Of a stretch of DNA of 5,841 bases, positions 1-5,841 are shown in pieces. The notes under the pieces were generated by a model. The model saw nothing but the letters and a program-made list of their open reading frames with translations, was not told where the DNA came from and made no database searches. Each line of letters begins with the position of its first letter. Position 1 is the first letter of the stretch. The position numbers and the translations under genes were made by a program. This stretch comes from Methanobacteriota archaeon (lineage in GTDB: Archaea; Hydrothermarchaeota; Hydrothermarchaeia; Hydrothermarchaeales; JAADFM01): assembly GCA_013152845.1 (NCBI GenBank), contig JAADFM010000032.1:1-5841 (forward strand). The letters run 5' to 3'.

Positions 1-541
1 GGTATTCCCACTGGGCCCGGTTTCCCCTGCGCTGGAGTTGGCCGTCGTTGTAGTACCGGGAGAGGTAGGTGGAGACCGAGCTCAGCTGGATATCCTCCCC
101 ATAGACAATTTCATATTCCTTCTGGATATCCTGGGACCGGACCCAGGAATCGGGATGCCCGTGCTTCAGCAGTAGGAATACCTTCTCCTTCTGGGTCAGG
201 CCGTGGGGGTCCTGGTTGAGCCAGGAGGGCAGCTGGTGCCCCTGTACATCCTGGAGGACCGCATCCCCGATGGAGGGATCGACGCCGTATAGGTATCCCA
301 GGAATGCCCCCACTTCCCGGGGGGCCTCTTCGGGTTCCATGTCCTCCAGTTCCCTGCTGATGGCCTCCCTGCCGTCACTCCCCTCCATTCTCAGCCGGAT
401 GGGCCCCTCCTCTCCCCTGAAGACATAGTCGAGGTAGTCGTCTATCTTCTCCAGGACCCTCCTGTAGGGCAGCCTCTCCAGGGAGATGGAGGAGCTCCCC
501 CTCGGGCCATGGACCTCTATCTTTATGCTGGGATACTTCAT
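1..541 (-). CDS. winged-helix DNA-binding protein, C-terminus cut by window edge
   Basis: An open frame of 180 codons runs from ATG at 541-539 to the window edge with no stop. The start is supported by a purine-rich GGGAGTG Shine-Dalgarno a few bases upstream and by the AT-rich promoter region behind it. Residues 1-110 or so are acidic and charged and match no family I recognise. Residues 116-180 look like a winged helix: a first helix around TQKEKVFLLLKHG, a second around SQDIQKEYEIVYG, a recognition-type helix around LSSVSTYLSRYYNDG, then a basic wing (QRRGNRAQWEY). This suggests a transcription regulator with an N-terminal sensing or dimerisation region. It is divergent from ftsZ and shares its promoter region, so control of ftsZ or of itself is plausible but inferred. 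The fold call rests on pattern only; the protein may continue beyond the wing. Confidence 0.8.
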   Translation of the reverse strand, partial: MKYPSIKIEVHGPRGSSSISLERLPYRRVLEKIDDYLDYVFRGEEGPIRLRMEGSDGREAISRELEDMEPEEAPREVGAFLGYLYGVDPSIGDAVLQDVQGHQLPSWLNQDPHGLTQKEKVFLLLKHGHPDSWVRSQDIQKEYEIVYGEDIQLSSVSTYLSRYYNDGQLQRRGNRAQWEY

Positions 542-562
542 TTTCACTCCCTATTCACTACT

Positions 563-577
563 TATCAATGTTAACAT
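563..577. promoter_or_regulatory. candidate operator, left copy (TATCAATGTTAAC with palindrome ATGTTAACAT)
   Basis: TATCAATGTTAAC at 563-575 matches TATCATTGTTAAC at 730-742 in 12 of 13 bases. The perfect 10-bp palindrome ATGTTAACAT occupies 568-577. The site lies over the predicted transcription start of the leftward winged-helix gene, where a bound protein would block initiation. Its operator role is inferred from position and repetition. Confidence 0.4.
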
Positions 578-589
578 GCTGCCAAGTTA

Positions 590-605
590 CATATAAATAA
601 CTTAC
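590..605 (-). promoter_or_regulatory. TATA box of the leftward winged-helix gene
   Basis: Read on the minus strand, TTATTTATATG (600 to 590) resembles an archaeal TATA box. A start about 25 bases downstream falls near 570 and gives a leader of roughly 28 nt before the ATG at 541. The upstream BRE is weak. Other AT-rich stretches (for example around 636-646) could serve instead. Confidence 0.5.
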
Positions 606-676
606 CATAGCCAATTTTTCATATATTTCCATGCATTATATATATGTTAATAGTAAATTAGAATAATATAAATCTG

Positions 677-689
677 TTTTCTTTGAAAA
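677..689. repeat. short inverted repeat upstream of the ftsZ promoter
   Basis: TTTTC-TTT-GAAAA is a perfect 5-bp inverted repeat with a 3-base centre, ending 11 bases before the putative BRE. It could be an activator site. In DNA this AT-rich it could also be chance. Confidence 0.2.
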
Positions 690-700
690 GATGCACAAAA

Positions 701-717
701 CGAAACACTTATATATG
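701..717 (+). promoter_or_regulatory. ftsZ promoter: BRE plus TATA box
   Basis: CGAAAC at 701-706 is a purine-rich BRE candidate directly before the TATA box CTTATATATG (708-717). A start 22-27 bases downstream of the box centre falls at about 735-740. This leaves a leader of about 32-37 nt that still contains the AAGGGGGT ribosome binding site at 757-764. This is the best-formed promoter in the window. Confidence 0.75.
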
Positions 718-723
718 AGTACT

Positions 724-751
724 TGTGAATATCATTGTTAACTCGTTCACA
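724..751. repeat. TGTGAA-N16-TTCACA dyad over the ftsZ start region
   Basis: TGTGAA at 724-729 and TTCACA at 746-751 are perfect 6-bp inverted arms. They flank the GTTAAC element, and their centres are 22 bp apart, close to two helical turns, as expected for a dimeric regulator. The right arm overlaps the hairpin at 743-757, so only one of the two structures may be meaningful. Confidence 0.3.
730..742. promoter_or_regulatory. candidate operator, right copy (TATCATTGTTAAC)
   Basis: Second copy of the 13-bp element at 563-575, differing at one base and keeping the palindromic GTTAAC core (737-742). It covers the predicted ftsZ transcription start. A shared repressor acting on both divergent genes would explain the two placements; this is an inference. 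Confidence 0.4.
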
Positions 752-757
752 GAACGA
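743..757 (+). promoter_or_regulatory. hairpin-forming inverted repeat just before the ftsZ ribosome binding site
   Basis: TCGTTC-ACA-GAACGA is a perfect 6-bp inverted repeat with a 3-base loop. It lies near the 5' end of the predicted ftsZ leader and its last base is the first of the AAGGGGGT Shine-Dalgarno (757-764). As RNA it could form a small stem abutting the ribosome binding site; as DNA it could be half of an operator. Neither role is shown by sequence alone. Confidence 0.4.
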
Positions 758-771
758 AGGGGGTAAAGAAG

Positions 772-1962
772 ATGGACTTCCTCTTGGAAAAGGCGATGGA
801 AAACACCAGAAAAGAAGAACGTTTCACCCCGGCCGGAAACGGAATCGGGCAGGCGAGGATAACTGTCATAGGCAGTGGAGGAGCTGGAAACAACACCATA
901 AACCGGCTTCACAGGATCGGAATCAGCGGCGCTCAGCTCATAGCGGTCAATACCGACAGGCAGCACCTTGAGACCATTGAGTCCGATAAGAAGATGCTGA
1001 TAGGCACCGAGCTGACGAGGGGCCTCGGCGCCGGCGGCTATCCCGAGATAGGGGAGCAGGCTGCCCTGGAGGCAAAGCCCGAGCTGCGGAGTGTGCTGGA
1101 AGGCTCGGACCTTGTGTTCCTGACCGCTGGCCTCGGCGGTGGCACGGGTACGGGCAGTCTTCCTGTAATCGCTGACATCGCAAAGCAGACCGGGGCCGTG
1201 GTTGTCGGTGCCGTGACCATGCCCTTCAATGTAGAGAGGGCGAGGATCGGAAAGGCCAAAGAGGCCCTCCTGAAGCTCAAGAAGGCCGCCGACAGCGTGG
1301 TGGTTGTGGACAACAACAAACTCCTGTCCCATGTCCCTGACCTGCCCATCAACGATGCCTTCGGGGTTGCCGACGAGGTCCTCTCCAGGATGGTCAAGGG
1401 CATAACCGAGACGATAGCGGTCCCCAGCCTTGTGAACCTTGACTTCGCAGACGTGCGCAGTGTCATGAGGGACAGCAGCGACAGGGGTGTCGCCATGATA
1501 GGCCTTGGGGACTCTGACACCCGGAACCGGGCAGAGGAGGCCGTGCTCCATGCCATGGAGAACCCGCTCCTTGAGGTTGACTACAGGGGTGCCACCGGGG
1601 CCCTGGTGCACATCACCGGCGGCCGGGACCTGACCCTGGGAGAGGCCAACAAGATAGGGGAGCTTGCAACCTCCTACCTCAGGGACGATGCATCGGTAAT
1701 CTGGGGTGCTAGGATAGACCCTGAGTACGACGGCAGGGTGCAGGTCATGATAATCATGACAGGCGTCTCCTCGCCTGACATCCTCGGGCCCAACGACTCT
1801 ATCCAGAAGTTCCAGCAGCCCTCCTACTCCGGCAACCTCTTTGACAGGTACGTTAGGGCCAAGCCCAGACCAGTCAAGCCGCCCGGAGCGGACAGGATTC
1901 AGAGACCGGAAAGCCTCATGACAGACGTCCTGAAGGATTCAGGCATTGACTACATCGTGTGA
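772..1962 (+). CDS. ftsZ: cell division GTPase FtsZ
   Basis: This is a tubulin-superfamily GTPase that polymerises at mid-cell to form the division ring. The 396 residues are normal length for FtsZ. Visible motifs are the N-terminal nucleotide-binding GSGGAGNN (34-41), the tubulin signature GGGTGTG (122-128) and the T7 loop NLDFAD (222-227), whose two aspartates complete the GTPase site of the neighbouring subunit. The C-terminal domain follows up to about residue 340, then a linker of about 43 residues, then a conserved-looking tail (TDVLKDSGIDYIV, 384-396) of the kind that binds membrane anchors. The start is ATG with AAGGGGGT seven bases upstream. The motifs point to canonical FtsZ and not to CetZ. 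It heads a cluster with a 17-nt gap to the next gene. Assignment to the FtsZ1 or FtsZ2 lineage needs a tree. Confidence 0.97.
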   Translation: MDFLLEKAMENTRKEERFTPAGNGIGQARITVIGSGGAGNNTINRLHRIGISGAQLIAVNTDRQHLETIESDKKMLIGTELTRGLGAGGYPEIGEQAALEAKPELRSVLEGSDLVFLTAGLGGGTGTGSLPVIADIAKQTGAVVVGAVTMPFNVERARIGKAKEALLKLKKAADSVVVVDNNKLLSHVPDLPINDAFGVADEVLSRMVKGITETIAVPSLVNLDFADVRSVMRDSSDRGVAMIGLGDSDTRNRAEEAVLHAMENPLLEVDYRGATGALVHITGGRDLTLGEANKIGELATSYLRDDASVIWGARIDPEYDGRVQVMIIMTGVSSPDILGPNDSIQKFQQPSYSGNLFDRYVRAKPRPVKPPGADRIQRPESLMTDVLKDSGIDYIV

Positions 1963-1979
1963 GTTCACGAGGGGTCGAA

Positions 1980-2168
1980 ATGACAACCCTTTCTGAACAG
2001 CTGGCAAAACCCGAGCTCCCTGAGCCATCCAGGGAGAGCGTCGACCTGGGCCGGACCTATTCGGTCCTCTCCTTCGGCGACGTCTCGGGTGCCATCGAGG
2101 ACTATACCCTGATCCCAATAGATCAGGAGGGTCTGGTGGTTGTAAAGAACCTCGTATTCTTCGAATAG
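1980..2168 (+). CDS. small uncharacterised protein between ftsZ and GTPase gene
   Basis: This encodes a 62-residue soluble protein that I do not recognise. The ATG at 1980 is preferred because GAGGGG lies five bases upstream (1969-1974). An alternative GTG at 1959 overlaps the ftsZ stop and would add seven residues, but has no such site. The N-terminal third is polar and proline-rich (KPELPEPSRES) and probably flexible. Residues 26-62 look strand-rich and hydrophobic, ending in GLVVVKNLVFFE. There is no signal peptide, membrane segment or cysteine. It lies 17 nt after ftsZ and 11 nt before the GTPase gene, with the next gene's Shine-Dalgarno overlapping its stop, so co-expression is very likely. 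A partner or adaptor of one of the two GTPases is a guess from position. Confidence 0.75.
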   Translation: MTTLSEQLAKPELPEPSRESVDLGRTYSVLSFGDVSGAIEDYTLIPIDQEGLVVVKNLVFFE

Positions 2169-2179
2169 GAGGTCTGAGA

Positions 2180-2620
2180 ATGGAAAGGCGAAAAGTGGTC
2201 GTGCTTGGAAAGTACGATGCAGGTAAAAGCACCCTGATAAGCAGGCTCGCAGACAACGCCAAGAACGTGGAATATGACGGGATAACCGTTTCCATGGACA
2301 TCGGCTACAAGGTCTTCGGCAACAAGAAGCTCTACTTCTTCGGGACACCCGGCCAGGAGAGGTTCAAGTTCTTGAGGAAGATACTCTCCGAGGGCCTGGA
2401 CTGCGGGATAGTAGTGGTGGACTCCACCCGCGGCCTGACCAGGGAGGACATGGAAATCCTGGAACAGGTGAAGGCCATGGGCGTCCCCTATATGGTCTTT
2501 GTCAACAAGACCGACAAGGGGGAGCTGGACTACGACTTCGGGGTGGCCACCGTCAAGGGCTCAGCGCTTCACGGTGATGGGGTGAATAGAGTGGTGGAAA
2601 CCGTCCTCGCCATGACATGA
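2180..2620 (+). CDS. small Ras-like GTPase (COG2229 / CvnD-like)
   Basis: A 146-residue single-domain P-loop GTPase. G1 is GKYDAGKST (10-18), the G2 threonine is probably T36, G3 is FGTPGQERF (54-62), G4 is NKTD (109-112) and G5 is SAL (128-130). The usual G3 aspartate is glycine here (G55), a change I recall as typical of the COG2229/Cvn group and not a defect; the catalytic-type glutamine Q59 is kept. There is no transmembrane segment, no N-terminal myristoylation glycine and no C-terminal cysteine, so it appears cytosolic. GGAGGT sits six bases before the ATG. Relatives such as MglA and bacterial CvnD act as molecular switches with Roadblock partners; none is encoded in this window. Its place 11 nt behind the small protein and in line with ftsZ suggests a role in division or its positioning, which is inferred. 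Confidence 0.92.
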   Translation: MERRKVVVLGKYDAGKSTLISRLADNAKNVEYDGITVSMDIGYKVFGNKKLYFFGTPGQERFKFLRKILSEGLDCGIVVVDSTRGLTREDMEILEQVKAMGVPYMVFVNKTDKGELDYDFGVATVKGSALHGDGVNRVVETVLAMT

Positions 2621-2636
2621 CGGAGGTGATGAGGAG

Positions 2637-2867
2637 ATGGATACCGAGACAAAAAAGTTTGCAAACACAGCGGTTAAAATCAACGTGATAAAGAGCGTTT
2701 TTGGTGAAGGGGAGAAGCTCAAGGGCAAGGAGATCGTCGAACGGGTTCGCGCCCAGGGATACAAGGTCAAGGATGCCAATCTGAAGATGTTCATCTATTA
2801 CAACATGCTGTACAAGCACCTGAAAAAGGAGGACATCAACGGCATCAACCACTACAGCCTGGTCTAA
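2637..2867 (+). CDS. small winged-helix-like protein
   Basis: A basic protein of 76 residues and the last gene of the ftsZ cluster. The start is set by a near-perfect GGAGGTGAT (2622-2630) with ATG at 2637, 16 nt after the GTPase stop. Predicted order is a helix at about 7-22, a helix at 29-41 (KGKEIVERVRAQG), a long lysine- and tyrosine-rich helix at 46-65, then a short wing ending in HYSLV. This pattern and the charge suggest DNA binding by a single winged-helix domain. The 5' part is more AT-rich than its neighbours. It may regulate the cluster or bind the GTPase; the sequence does not decide. Family is not recognised and the fold call is tentative. Confidence 0.85.
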   Translation: MDTETKKFANTAVKINVIKSVFGEGEKLKGKEIVERVRAQGYKVKDANLKMFIYYNMLYKHLKKEDINGINHYSLV

Positions 2868-2883
2868 GGCTTCCTCCATCCCC

Positions 2884-2907
2884 TTTTTTATATTATTTTT
2901 ACCTTTT
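2884..2907 (+). terminator. poly-T terminator of the ftsZ cluster
   Basis: Three T-runs (2884-2889, 2896-2900, 2904-2907) begin 17 bases after the stop of the last plus-strand gene, with no strong stem before them. This is the usual form of an intrinsic archaeal terminator. It overlaps the 3' end of the small ORF on the opposite strand. Confidence 0.65.
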
Positions 2908-3004
2908 CCTTCAGCAGGGGTCTGTGGATAGTCGGGACATACCAGCCCTTCTGCCTGATAATCATCTCCTTTTTGAGATTGTATTCCCCTTCGCTGCCTT
3001 TCAT
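2888..3004 (-). CDS. candidate 38-residue small protein
   Basis: An open frame of 38 codons and a TAA (2890-2888), starting at ATG 3004-3002. GGGGAG lies four bases upstream of the ATG on the minus strand, so the start is plausible. The product is basic (MKGSEGEYNLKKEM followed by a WYVPTIHRPLL stretch) and ends in KEKVKII; it has no membrane segment. It begins 42 nt after the antiporter stop on the same strand with no terminator between, so it could be the last gene of that cluster. No family recognised. Support is the ribosome binding site, position, and a plausible composition; it could be a chance frame in a 3' region. Confidence 0.45.
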   Translation of the reverse strand: MKGSEGEYNLKKEMIIRQKGWYVPTIHRPLLKEKVKII

Positions 3005-3015
3005 AAATCTCCCCT

Positions 3016-3029
3016 GATATTATAATATC
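3016..3029. repeat. perfect 14-bp palindrome before the small ORF
   Basis: GATATTATAATATC is a perfect palindrome lying between the antiporter stop and the ribosome binding site of the 38-codon ORF. On either strand it also resembles a TATA box, but it is only about 19 bases from that ORF's ATG, too close for a start upstream of it. It could be an operator or a weak RNA stem. Confidence 0.35.
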
Positions 3030-3046
3030 CCTTCTAGCATAAATAG

Positions 3047-4237
3047 TTATTTGATATCCTCTCCGAAGACCACCCCTTCAACAGGGTTATCCTGGCTGAG
3101 GAAGCGGCGGACGATAGGGGGGGTTATAACCGTTGTGATTACCGCCAGGAGAACAAAACTCGAGAAGATGCTGTCACTGATCTTCCCCATCCCGTATGCG
3201 ATGTTGGCAGCAGCCAACCCAACGGCCAGACGGGTGGTCATGGCCGAAGCCATCCCCAGGGACTCCCTGACCGAAAACCCCATGGCCAGGGCAGGGAAGA
3301 AGCCCCCCACGCCCTTGCTCAATATGGCCACCGTCACCAGTGCAGATGCAAAGACCAGCTCGCCCTCTACGTTCAGGATGGAGAGGATGTCCGTGCTGCA
3401 ACCTGAAACAAAGAAGAAGATGGGTACAAAGAAGCCATAGCCTATGGCGTTCAGCTTCTCCAGGAACCAGCCGGTCTTTATGGAATCCGAGACAGCGATA
3501 CCCGCAAAAAAGGCCCCGACTATGGGATGGAGGTCGATGTTCTCAGATACGATGGCCACTATGAGGAGGACCAGTATGAGGAACCTGGTCTCTGCCTCGA
3601 TGGAGACCATAAACTTTGGCCGGTTCAGGGAATACTCGGCGAATTTCGGGACGATATAGAGGATGGCCATGAAGAAGAGTAGCAGGACCAGGACATAGGA
3701 AACCGGGTTGAAGGGTTCGCCTGCGAGGGCCTTTATGAGGACGGCCAGGGCCACCATGCTTACGATGTCGTCGAGGACTGCAGCCCCCAGTACCGTTGTC
3801 CCCACCCGTGTGGCCAGTAGATTGAGTTCCTTCAGTACAGGGGTCACCACTCCCACGGAGGTCGTGGATAGGATTACTCCCATGAGGGCCTTGACGGTGG
3901 TCGGATAGCCAAAGGCATCGGCCAGGAGATATCCGCTGGCGAAGGGGATGAGGAAGGTGAAGCTCCCCAGGACTGATGCCTTCTTCCAGTTCTCCCTGAT
4001 GATGGTAGGGTGCATCTCCAGCCCGGCCAGGAACATGAGGAACACTATCCCGAACTCGCTCAGGGAGAGGAGGAGCCCGTCCTTCTCCACCACCCCCAGG
4101 CCGTTCCAGCCCAGGAGCATACCGAAGATGATTATGCCTGTGACCTCCGGCATCCCCACGCCCCTAGACAGGAGGGGAGAGAAGAAGGCCACGGCCATTA
4201 TGATGAGGAAAAGGAGAAGGACATCCACCCTATCCAC
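3047..4237 (-). CDS. CPA2-family cation/proton antiporter
   Basis: This is an integral membrane exchanger of Na+ or K+ for H+. The 396 residues hold about 12-13 hydrophobic segments from residue 6 to 377 and then a short charged tail. Family marks are FLAGLEM (69-75), the broken-helix stretch LSTTSVGVVTP (123-133), the ion-binding pair D156-D157 in AVLDDI, VPIFFFVSG (271-279) and K308 in the segment that in NapA-type antiporters carries the lysine paired with the first aspartate. These indicate an electrogenic NapA/KefB-like core. Unlike KefB and KefC it lacks a fused RCK domain; that domain is encoded just upstream, overlapping by 8 nt. The start is a GTG at 4237 inside the end of the RCK gene; a GTG three codons later is equally possible. 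Ion specificity cannot be read from sequence. Confidence 0.93.
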   Translation of the reverse strand: MDRVDVLLLFLIIMAVAFFSPLLSRGVGMPEVTGIIIFGMLLGWNGLGVVEKDGLLLSLSEFGIVFLMFLAGLEMHPTIIRENWKKASVLGSFTFLIPFASGYLLADAFGYPTTVKALMGVILSTTSVGVVTPVLKELNLLATRVGTTVLGAAVLDDIVSMVALAVLIKALAGEPFNPVSYVLVLLLFFMAILYIVPKFAEYSLNRPKFMVSIEAETRFLILVLLIVAIVSENIDLHPIVGAFFAGIAVSDSIKTGWFLEKLNAIGYGFFVPIFFFVSGCSTDILSILNVEGELVFASALVTVAILSKGVGGFFPALAMGFSVRESLGMASAMTTRLAVGLAAANIAYGMGKISDSIFSSFVLLAVITTVITPPIVRRFLSQDNPVEGVVFGEDIK

Positions 4238-4865
4238 CCTGGATTTTCAGGGAGGCCTTTCTGCATCCATCCCTATTGCCCACAAGGACCAGGGTGTCTC
4301 CGGCGTGTATGGTCTCATCCTCCTGTGGGTCGATGACTCTCGGCCCCCTGAGGATGGCAGATATGAAACAGTCCTTGCCCCTGAAGTTTGAGACCTTCTT
4401 CCCAGAGGCGGCAGAGCCTTCCACTACCTTCATGAAGATGGTATCGAATTCCCTGGTACCCATTAGAGAGTAGTCAAAGGCTACAGCCTCAAAATAGTAG
4501 GCTAGGATGAGCGGCGGCGAGATGGCCACGTCGATGCCCAGAGCCTGGAACATCTTCTGGTTCCGGGACTTGTTGACCTTTGCGGCCACCCTTTTGGCAC
4601 CGAGCATCTTGGAAAACTCACAGACCATGAGGTTCTTCTCGTCGCTGGGGGTCAACGCCATGACCACGTTTGCTTTGTCCACTCCTACCTTTTTGAGGAC
4701 CTCTGGATTGGTGGCGTCGTCGTTTACCACTTGGATGTGGTGGAGGGAGGCCACCTCCTGGGCGATTTCTTTGTTTATTTCAACCAGGACGACATCGAAA
4801 CCGGCGCCTGTGAGCCTTTTGGCTACATAGACCCCTATTTCCCCTGCGCCTACGATGACAATCAT
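4230..4865 (-). CDS. TrkA/RCK nucleotide-binding regulatory protein
   Basis: A soluble 211-residue protein that gates or regulates a K+ channel or K+/H+ antiporter in response to bound nucleotide. RCK_N (TrkA-N) spans about 1-120: GAGEIG (6-11) is the Rossmann glycine motif, E29 after the second strand fits NAD(H) or adenine-nucleotide ribose binding, and DDAT (49-52) is the conserved loop after the next strand. RCK_C (TrkA-C) spans about 138-205 and ends with the typical IHAGDTLVLVGN stretch. The ATG is 9 nt after the synthase stop with a GGAGG upstream. Its 3' end overlaps the antiporter gene, so translational coupling and a direct complex are likely, as in two-gene K+/H+ antiporters. It could instead serve a Trk or Ktr channel encoded elsewhere. 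Confidence 0.93.
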   Translation of the reverse strand: MIVIVGAGEIGVYVAKRLTGAGFDVVLVEINKEIAQEVASLHHIQVVNDDATNPEVLKKVGVDKANVVMALTPSDEKNLMVCEFSKMLGAKRVAAKVNKSRNQKMFQALGIDVAISPPLILAYYFEAVAFDYSLMGTREFDTIFMKVVEGSAASGKKVSNFRGKDCFISAILRGPRVIDPQEDETIHAGDTLVLVGNRDGCRKASLKIQGG

Positions 4866-4874
4866 ACTATTCCC

Positions 4875-5841
4875 TTAGCCTCCGCCCTTGATAAAACTCT
4901 CGACCATGTCCCTGGCCACGTTGTCCGGGTACTGCTCGGGTGGGGTCTTCATGAAATAGGACGAGGGGGCCAGGAGGGCCCCGCCGACGCCCCTGTCAAT
5001 GGCCAGCTTTGCGCATCTTATGGCGTCGATGACCACCCCGGCCGAATTCGGCGAGTCCTCAACCGACAGGCGGCACTCCAGGTTCATGGGCACGTCCCCG
5101 AAGTGGCGGCTCTCGATGCGGAGGAAGCAGAGCTTGTTGTCCTTCTGCCAGGGCACGTAGTCCGAGGGGCCGACGTAGACGTTGTCTGGCTCGATGTCCA
5201 TGCCCCGGGCCAGGATCTGGGAGGTGACGGCGTTGGTCTTGGAGCGCCGCTTGGAGAAGAGCCGCTCCTCCTCCTTCATGTTCAGGAAATCGGTGTTCCC
5301 GCCGGTGTTGAGCTGGTAGGTGCGGTCGATGGGCATCCCGCGGTCCAGGAAGAGGTTTGTGAGGGTCCTGTGAAGGATGGTGGCCCCTACCTGGGACTTG
5401 ATGTCGTCGCCGATGATGGGCAGGCCGGCCTTCTCGAAGCGCTGGCGCCAGTAGTCGGTCTGTACCCACTTTCCGTTGGGTTCCTGGGTCCATCCGCTTG
5501 CGATGAAAACAGGGATGCAGTTGATGAAGCCGCAGCCTGCCTCCAGGGCCTGTTCCACGTACCACTTGGTGGCCATCTCACTGCCCACCGGGAGGTAGTT
5601 GATTACCACGTCGGTATTGGTATCCTTGAGGACCTCGGCCACGTCTACCGTTGATGAGGGGTGCTTCTCGATAATCTGAGAGAGGTATTTGCCCAGGCCG
5701 TCGTGCGTCATGCCCCGCTGGACCTCGACGCCCAGTTTCGGGACCTTGGAGAATCTTGCGGTGTTGTTGGGCTCTGTGAAGATGGCCTTCGAGAGGTCCT
5801 TTCCCACCTTGTTCTTGTCGATGTCGAAGGCCGCCGAGAAC
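4875..5841 (-). CDS. ino1: myo-inositol-1-phosphate synthase, N-terminus outside window
   Basis: This enzyme converts glucose 6-phosphate to myo-inositol 1-phosphate in the cytosol using NAD+ as a recycled cofactor. The frame is open to the window edge: 321 residues are visible, beginning within [14 protein letters not shown], so roughly the first 45-50 residues (start codon and glycine-rich NAD loop) are missing. The GTG at 5807 is internal. Core motifs are [22 protein letters not shown] (near 5370-5412), [12 protein letters not shown] (near 5279-5314), a lysine-rich [16 protein letters not shown], and a C-terminal [13 protein letters not shown]. From memory it resembles the short archaeal and mycobacterial Ino1 type more than the long eukaryotic enzyme. 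An insertion of about 11 residues ([17 protein letters not shown]) follows PVFIA. It leads the minus-strand cluster. The product may feed archaeal inositol lipids or di-myo-inositol phosphate. Confidence 0.95.

Follow-up and report, generated by a model that had tools for sequence, protein, structure and literature searches.

The DNA stretch analysed here, referred to below as the window, comprises 5,841 nucleotides of contig 32 from a member of the archaeal phylum Hydrothermarchaeota, with a genome assembly of 1.17 Mb that is 63% complete. At its center lies a cluster of four genes on the plus strand, starting with the division gene ftsZ (772–1962) and continuing with genes for a 62-residue protein (P62, 1980–2168), a small GTPase (2180–2620), and a 76-residue winged-helix protein (wH76, 2637–2867). 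The gaps between them, of 17, 11, and 16 nt, as well as the gene coordinates, are the same as in a preliminary description made from the sequence alone. A divergently transcribed gene, named here HTHup (2–547, minus strand, cut by the end of the window), precedes the cluster, and a T-rich stretch read from the sequence as a possible terminator (about 2881–2906, plus strand) follows its last stop codon. In an NCBIfam scan, FtsZ matched TIGR00065 with 398 bits and the GTPase matched TIGR00231 (small_GTP) with 71 bits, both above the cut-off. P62 and wH76 reached no Pfam or NCBIfam family above the cut-off and had no Pfam match at E 0.1, with a single sub-threshold NCBIfam match of wH76 (E 0.09).

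The FtsZ2 cassette and its conservation

The FtsZ of the window has the GTPase and C-terminal domains expected of this family, with GGGTGTG at residue 122 and the T7-loop aspartate present, NLDFADV at residue 222, and GIDYIV at residue 391 near the C terminus. Structure-match scores, sequence identities, and a quick tree identify it as an FtsZ2. The structure of FtsZ1 from M. jannaschii (1W58, labelled FtsZ1 on the strength of its PDB name, "FTSZ HOMOLOG 1") scores 324 bits with the window protein and 441 bits with the second FtsZ of the phylum (genome G004). In the comparison with solved structures, the two FtsZs of genome G043 score 496 and 359 bits, and the window protein is 60% identical to the latter and 49% to the former. 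In the tree, which comprises 56 rows after the exclusion of three divergent rows and two duplicate loci and in which many inner forks are open, the window FtsZ lies inside a clade of 19 Hydrothermarchaeota rows (support 100), and the FtsZ1 and FtsZ2 sets split at 99. An assignment to FtsZ1 was dropped on the basis of these scores and of this placement.

Among the 23 genomes of the phylum, 22 contain an FtsZ match at E 1e-20, and 19, including that of the window, possess the FtsZ2 type. Genomes G005, G019, and G020, two of which are only about 60% complete, have the other type only, and G022 has none. Besides the window, 18 ftsZ2 loci were inspected; the downstream region can be evaluated in 18 loci including the window, since the contig of G003 stops right after ftsZ2. 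In G003, wH76 opens another contig and is followed by a convergent inositol-phosphate synthase gene, as in some other cassettes. The gene of wH76 is found in a same-strand cassette behind ftsZ2 in all 18 evaluable loci, so that the cluster is not a product of chance, and P62 is present in 13 of them. The cassette also has a variable slot, which holds an intact GTPase in one cassette (that of the window), a degenerate GTPase in three, an unrelated protein of the DHHA1 type in nine, and nothing in five (G002, G004, G007, G009, and G021). In 18 of 19 loci, HTHup is encoded divergently ahead of ftsZ2; the remaining locus, that of G009, is truncated there by its contig end. Among 44 gene junctions, the spacing is −11 to 57 nt at 39 and 112 and 121 nt at two more, the other three having been left unresolved by the script. 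We infer that ftsZ2, P62, the slot gene, and wH76 form one operon.

The two small proteins differ in how far they can be traced. With the window sequence alone as a query, wH76 was matched in all 23 genomes of the phylum, and its profile matched none of 371 other archaea. The window P62 alone found nine of the other 12 P62-bearing cassettes at E 0.05, the remaining ones (G008, G001, and G011) having been added by position and resemblance. The P62 profile matched 14 of the 23 genomes (E at most 5e-11), 13 of which are in the profile by construction; outside the phylum, among 175 other archaea, it yielded only two matches (E 0.005–0.007), taken as noise. The cassette of ftsZ2, P62, and wH76 is thus conserved well beyond one species. 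The linkage of FtsZ with two small proteins, proposed in the preliminary description with conserved adjacency as its check, is thereby borne out. The same description called both proteins unknown, and neither belongs to a known family above the cut-off; its view of the 62-residue protein as an orphan has to be given up, since both proteins are conserved in Hydrothermarchaeota.

The AlphaFold2 model of P62 (mean pLDDT 73.6, about 90 over residues 31–60) predicts a disordered N terminus followed by a three-stranded sheet (residues 27–60), and no match was found among solved structures, the best E being 1.1. Second P62-like genes lie away from ftsZ2 in G004 (L352:3235–3378) and G003 (L353:1960–2106), both adjoining a gene for a similar-looking protein of 221–222 residues. 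SepF is found in 19 of the 23 genomes, away from the ftsZ2 cassette.

The site array and its candidate binder

Two promoters face away from each other in the region between HTHup and ftsZ2, as read from the sequence. The TATA-like box of the ftsZ2 operon (709–716, plus strand) begins 63 nt upstream of the ftsZ start and is followed by a candidate operator array (724–751, no strand assigned), consisting of TGTGAA at 724, GTTAAC at 737, and TTCACA at 746, which covers the expected transcription start. Between the array and the gene lies GGGGG (759–763, plus strand), a likely ribosome-binding site; AGGGGG/GGGGTA is over-represented upstream of the 19 ftsZ2 genes. On the other side, a similar array (543–575, no strand assigned), with TTCAC at 543 and 554 and GTTAAC at 570, is located between the TATA-like box of HTHup (590–598, minus strand) and its start. 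The HTHup start is assumed to be the ATG at 541, and the first site, at 543, overlaps a possible GTG start at 547.

The array recurs at all 19 ftsZ2 promoters read in the phylum. In the 260 nt upstream of each of the 19 Hydrothermarchaeota ftsZ2 genes (4.94 kb), TTCAC/GTGAA occurs 85 times, compared with 10.6 ± 3.2 (maximum 21) in 300 shuffles. The density of sites is 17.2 per kb in these regions versus 2.4 per kb in the rest of the same loci, and the two most over-represented hexamers are TGTGAA and ATTCAC. At least two sites occupy the same place, 3′ of the TATA box and before the start codon, in 19 of 19 promoters (the arrays of G021 and G002, the starts of which were mis-set by the script, having been read directly). 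A TATA-like word was located in 18 of the 19 promoters (all except that of G012), and the first site follows it by 13–17 nt each time. A scan of 60 stretches of G004, 1.2 Mb in all, gave two clusters of three sites, one at ftsZ2 and one at the junction of two other genes, with 0–2 clusters in each of ten shuffles. With a stricter word, 357 loci amounting to 2.48 Mb yielded 87 clusters, 77 of which match Hydrothermarchaeota ftsZ2 upstream regions. The remaining ten represent six distinct loci (G044, G132, G234, G351, G268, and G024), all of which bear HTHup.

Homologues of HTHup are present in 20 of the 23 genomes of the phylum and in 40 of 371 other archaea. The window protein has no Pfam match at E 0.1, and its relatives have only sub-threshold Pfam matches, to the winged helices OST-HTH and Penicillinase_R; HTHup is therefore described here as a probable winged-helix protein, with the winged helix likely at its C terminus. 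In G044, a genome of another phylum, HTHup (E 3e-42) is divergent from a ribbon-helix-helix (RHH) gene followed by ftsZ2, with no wH76, and three sites lie between them, spaced 12 and 8 nt as in G002 and G009. The association extends to 20 HTHup loci of ten other archaeal families, sampled from the 40 genomes with matches. With no preset motif, the hexamers in greatest excess upstream of these homologues are TGTGAA, TCACAA, and ATTCAC, in this order, with a family score of 8.0 for TGTGAA/TTCACA versus 1.9 expected. Of the 20 homologues, 18 have TTCACA/TGTGAA upstream, compared with 20 of the 64 genes used as controls (Fisher P 3e-6, the loci of any one family not being independent). On balance, HTHup is the best candidate for the binder of the array.

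The window is accordingly read here as an ftsZ2 division operon with an exchangeable slot, likely controlled by HTHup through its binding to the TTCAC-type array over the ftsZ2 promoter, to which we assign a probability of about 0.6. The sequences establish that the cassette exists and is conserved, that its slot is exchangeable, that all 19 promoters carry the array between TATA box and start codon, and that the array is linked to HTHup genes in other archaea. HTHup would occupy adjacent sites at each of the two divergent promoters, blocking or positioning the polymerase, and so would keep its own dose and that of the ftsZ2 operon under a common autoregulation. More tentatively, P62 and wH76 might cooperate with FtsZ2 or belong to the same circuit; P62 would then be a small FtsZ2 partner and wH76 a second DNA-binding regulator. 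The slot protein might be a dispensable modulator and, in some lineages, a nucleotide sensor, its ligand perhaps being GTP/GDP in the window and possibly a dinucleotide where the slot is occupied by the DHHA1-type protein.

Several observations weigh against control by HTHup. The family score of 8.0 for TGTGAA is below the largest value that any word reached in the shuffles (8.3), and the case therefore rests on the excess over expectation together with the independent find at ftsZ2. Taken individually, 12 of the 20 HTHup upstream regions exceed their own shuffles at P 0.05 and eight do not, and families f55 and f105 have no site upstream of HTHup. The HTHup starts were set mechanically, six of the 20 without a methionine before the domain, and some of the 20 word-bearing control regions are shared with HTHup. 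Neither the 20 HTHup loci nor the 19 ftsZ2 promoters are independent, each set being related by descent, and profiles A1, A3, and A5 were built from members of the phylum, so that part of the matches within it arise by construction. Many of the 357 loci are overlapping copies, and most of the loci scanned had been selected on ftsZ or HTHup, the G004 sequence of 1.2 Mb being the exception; the cluster of G234 lies inside the HTHup frame, those of G351 and G268 are about 0.75 kb upstream, and the second cluster of G004 has no tie to division. In G050 and G090 (family f36), HTHup is present, with no array at the ftsZ2 loci read. Finally, G020 and G022 (family f9, loci L182 and L184), which have no match of the FtsZ2 type, encode wH76 divergently next to HTHup, and therefore neither protein is tied to ftsZ2 alone.

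Half-sites in mixed orientation, as found in the array, suit RHH repressors, and the binder could instead be an unlinked RHH protein similar to CdrS of haloarchaea, a proposal that we regard as very unlikely. To its credit, the portion seen of a study in Haloferax names ftsZ1, panA, and the c-di-AMP synthesis gene dacZ as genes with CdrS bound upstream (PMC8406309), and in family f36 HTHup is divergent from the gene of the proteasome-activating nucleotidase. No RHH gene, however, was seen in the Hydrothermarchaeota cassette, and the RHH protein of G044, used as a query against the G004 sequence of 1.2 Mb plus 54 further loci of the phylum, gave only weak matches (E 0.003 and 0.02), on which CdrS was rejected for the sequence read. 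Furthermore, no cluster of sites was found in G026, G028, and G048, where ftsZ2 is preceded by an RHH-like gene (named as RHH by Pfam only in G028) and HTHup has no match.

The second DNA-binding candidate is encoded within the cassette itself. The AlphaFold2 model of wH76 (pLDDT 93.6) consists of three helices and a two-stranded wing, and the protein is confidently predicted to have a winged-helix fold. The best Foldseek matches are winged helices, most of them DNA-binding, and include PagR, BlaI, and TubR, the last in the second and fourth positions. TubR is the DNA adaptor of the tubulin-like TubZ, and in TubZ–TubR plasmid segregation a gene of the tubulin/FtsZ family is next to a small winged-helix gene, an arrangement that resembles ftsZ2 with wH76; the modelled wH76 also resembles TubR in fold, by a weak and generic match. 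This likeness, the presence of wH76 in 18 of 18 cassettes, and its divergent pairing with HTHup where ftsZ2 is missing would be in keeping with wH76, and not HTHup, being the binder of the array; it could then be an autorepressor or, like TubR, an adaptor that anchors FtsZ2 filaments on DNA. We nevertheless consider this improbable. The best Foldseek E is 0.028, amid many other winged-helix repressors, and FtsZ2 is encoded on a genome contig and is not TubZ. G044 and other phyla have arrays or sites without having wH76, and no cluster of three sites was found in 18 upstream regions of wH76 paralogues (two of which are under 70 nt and one of which has a mis-set frame). A comparison of profiles found no relation between wH76 and HTHup (probability 0.2).

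HTHup homologues of other archaea are found within about 2 kb of orc1/cdc6 in families f19, f69, and f12 (among loci L272, L281, L289, and L282). This proximity and that to the proteasome ATPase gene would fit a cell-cycle regulator. In f12, dense GTTAAC/TTCAC sites lie upstream of HTHup (L276 in G024 and L289 in G281), and the f12 genomes G024 and G066 have no FtsZ match at E 1e-40. We can speculate that HTHup represents a widespread, undescribed family of archaeal cell-cycle regulators reading TTCACA/TGTGAA arrays beside orc1/cdc6, proteasome-ATPase, or ftsZ2 genes, and that in Hydrothermarchaeota it runs an FtsZ2 operon in which a nucleotide sensor in the slot, a GTPase or a domain of the dinucleotide type, is connected to division, while wH76 links FtsZ2 to DNA in the manner of TubR; taken as a whole, this extended proposal is unlikely.

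The exchangeable slot

The window GTPase (146 residues) has intact G1 (GKYDAGKS at residue 10), G4 (NKTD at 109), and G5 (GSA at 127) motifs, with GTPGQ at residue 55 as G3 in switch II. Relatives P0002–P0004, 87, 79, and 69% identical to it, retain these motifs, and P0005 (51% identical) retains G1 and G4 and has lost switch II. The degenerate GTPases of family f7 (G006, G010, and G012), encoded behind wH76, have lost the second glycine of the P-loop, switch II, and NKxD, while keeping an open frame. In a tree with long branches, and therefore not conclusive, they are on the same side of a branch as the window GTPase (support 87).

Five close relatives of the GTPase outside the phylum (L009–L013, inspected with flanks of 1.5 kb) are not beside ftsZ; that of L010 lies between genes that NCBIfam names as aroA and nth, a setting that L009, L012, and L013 seem to share and from which L011 differs. 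In the other 22 genomes of the phylum, the matches listed include the f7 cassette GTPases and two related GTPases, that of G009 (C150), whose neighbour reads as a KaiC-like ATPase, and that of G002 (C278), contained in a frame of 399 residues. Further matches listed lie within long frames of the size of translation factors.

In the preliminary description, the GTPase was called Cvn/MglA-like and was proposed as a Ras-like switch for the placement or timing of the division ring. A switch II of the TPGQ type is a trait of the MglA/Cvn-type family and is present in the window protein. The family label is nonetheless weak, since the best sequence matches are GTPases of the IF-2/EF-Tu type and Der, no MglA is named among the best 60 of 209 PDB matches (IF-2, Der, EF-G, Rab, and others), and no partner of the roadblock type was recognised in the cassette (Pfam, E 0.1). 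A general role as a switch acting on the FtsZ ring, with P62 and wH76 as its partners, would be consistent with the intact motifs of the window protein and of P0002–P0004, as well as with the fact that the GTPases of the phylum located within the ftsZ2 cassette include both that of the window and those of f7. Such a role is highly doubtful. The GTPase is intact in one of 18 cassettes, lacks its motifs in three, and is absent from 14, nine of which hold the unrelated DHHA1-type protein; P0005 is without switch II, and related GTPases are found away from ftsZ2, both in the phylum and outside it. Conserved adjacency thus holds for ftsZ2, P62, and wH76 and fails for the GTPase, which is the least conserved part of the cluster and, given the counts of occupants, a lineage-specific occupant of an exchangeable slot.

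The alternative occupant, a protein of 151–160 residues, is found in nine genomes of family f2 (45–79% identity to the first row). Scanned alone, two of three such proteins matched Pfam DHHA1 with E 0.06 and 0.16, below the cut-off, and the third had another weak match. Frames of ~470–600 residues are matched by their profile both in genomes of the phylum and in 40 of 175 other archaea, with E down to 1e-21 for full DHH proteins. Two of the matched frames, when scanned, were found to be TrkA_N-DHH-DHHA1 proteins, with the match overlying DHHA1, and close relatives of the slot protein are annotated as nanoRNase/pAp phosphatase. The slot protein resembles the DHHA1 end of these phosphoesterases and differs from them in standing alone, without the catalytic DHH part; at most a ligand-binding module would therefore remain. 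Its origin as a decayed GTPase was rejected, as it has no GTPase motif and a different profile. The kinship of this protein with c-di-AMP/oligoRNA hydrolases, the CdrS target dacZ (in the excerpt cited above), and the proteasome ATPase of f36 may possibly belong to one theme.

The slot gene could also be a bystander, the spot behind ftsZ2 being one where unrelated small genes fall and decay, considering that the occupants are of two unrelated kinds, that the slot is empty in five cassettes, and that the decayed GTPase of f7 lies behind wH76 rather than before it. This is somewhat unlikely. Both occupants are related to nucleotide-binding folds, the DHHA1-type protein has been retained in nine genomes of one family at the identities given above, and the f7 GTPase keeps its open frame despite the loss of its motifs and groups with that of the window.

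Comparison with known systems and neighboring genes

Control of FtsZ-based division in archaea outside haloarchaea is little known. The excerpts at hand describe the cdrS-ftsZ2 locus as highly conserved throughout archaea (PMC7439475), and those of a survey of archaeal ftsZ contexts report that ftsZ1 neighbours informational genes and that ftsZ2 usually has an RHH gene nearby (PMC9871819). In Halobacterium, according to the parts seen, a further regulator, CdrL, binds the promoter of the cdrS-ftsZ2 locus (PMC7439475, PMC8406309). As far as these excerpts go, the locus described here is similar in that ftsZ2 probably shares a transcript with the gene of a very small protein predicted to bind DNA, the genes lying on the same strand with mostly short gaps. 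CdrS, however, is an RHH protein encoded before ftsZ2, whereas here a small winged helix is encoded behind it, and P62 and the variable slot are added. CdrL is likewise an RHH protein, whereas the candidate promoter binder of the window is divergently encoded and is probably a winged helix. No RHH match was found among the window proteins, and the gene upstream of ftsZ2 is HTHup. The best reading of the putative HTHup–ftsZ2 circuit is as a counterpart of the haloarchaeal CdrSL–ftsZ2 circuit built on different folds.

The small archaeal GTPase ArvA (archaeal vesiculating GTPase) is encoded in an operon with small partners, ArvB and ArvC, also in Hydrothermarchaeota, as stated in the accessible portion of its description (PMC10927574), and to that extent resembles the window GTPase. 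The latter, with 146 residues, is not next to OapB. OapB/ArvB is found elsewhere in 18 of the 23 genomes, beside a GTPase frame of its own of 214–221 residues in six of six loci read, and that of the source genome is on another contig (C134); membership of the window GTPase in the ArvA system was rejected on these grounds.

Judged by titles and abstracts, the literature search returned nothing relevant on the motif, on a winged-helix regulator of ftsZ2, or on autoregulation of archaeal ftsZ. The portions seen of papers on FtsZ/tubulin evolution and on ArvA, returned for FtsZ with small GTPases or for Hydrothermarchaeota, do not describe the cassette. The locus offers a promoter with a specific site array and a candidate regulator, as well as two small proteins, found in this phylum only, behind ftsZ2, in 18 (wH76) and 13 (P62) of 18 cassettes. 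Should HTHup prove to be a cell-cycle regulator of deep archaeal ancestry, the matter could be put to the test through its homologues elsewhere, in lineages of which some can likely be cultured. As for the exchangeable slot, it amounts to a natural experiment on the accessory proteins that an FtsZ ring needs or can tolerate.

Downstream of the cassette, the window contains convergent genes of a CPA2-type antiporter, a TrkA-type protein, and inositol-1-phosphate synthase (4875–5840, minus strand), the first two intervening between the cassette and the synthase. A synthase gene is likewise convergent behind the ftsZ2 cassette in G002, G003, G004, and G010. On another contig of the source genome (C146, L185), three tubulin-family genes lie close together (527–4749, minus strand), two of them with a CetZ C-terminal domain, and a protein of 283 residues and of no recognised kind is encoded between the first two; the source genome contains seven tubulin-family matches in total.

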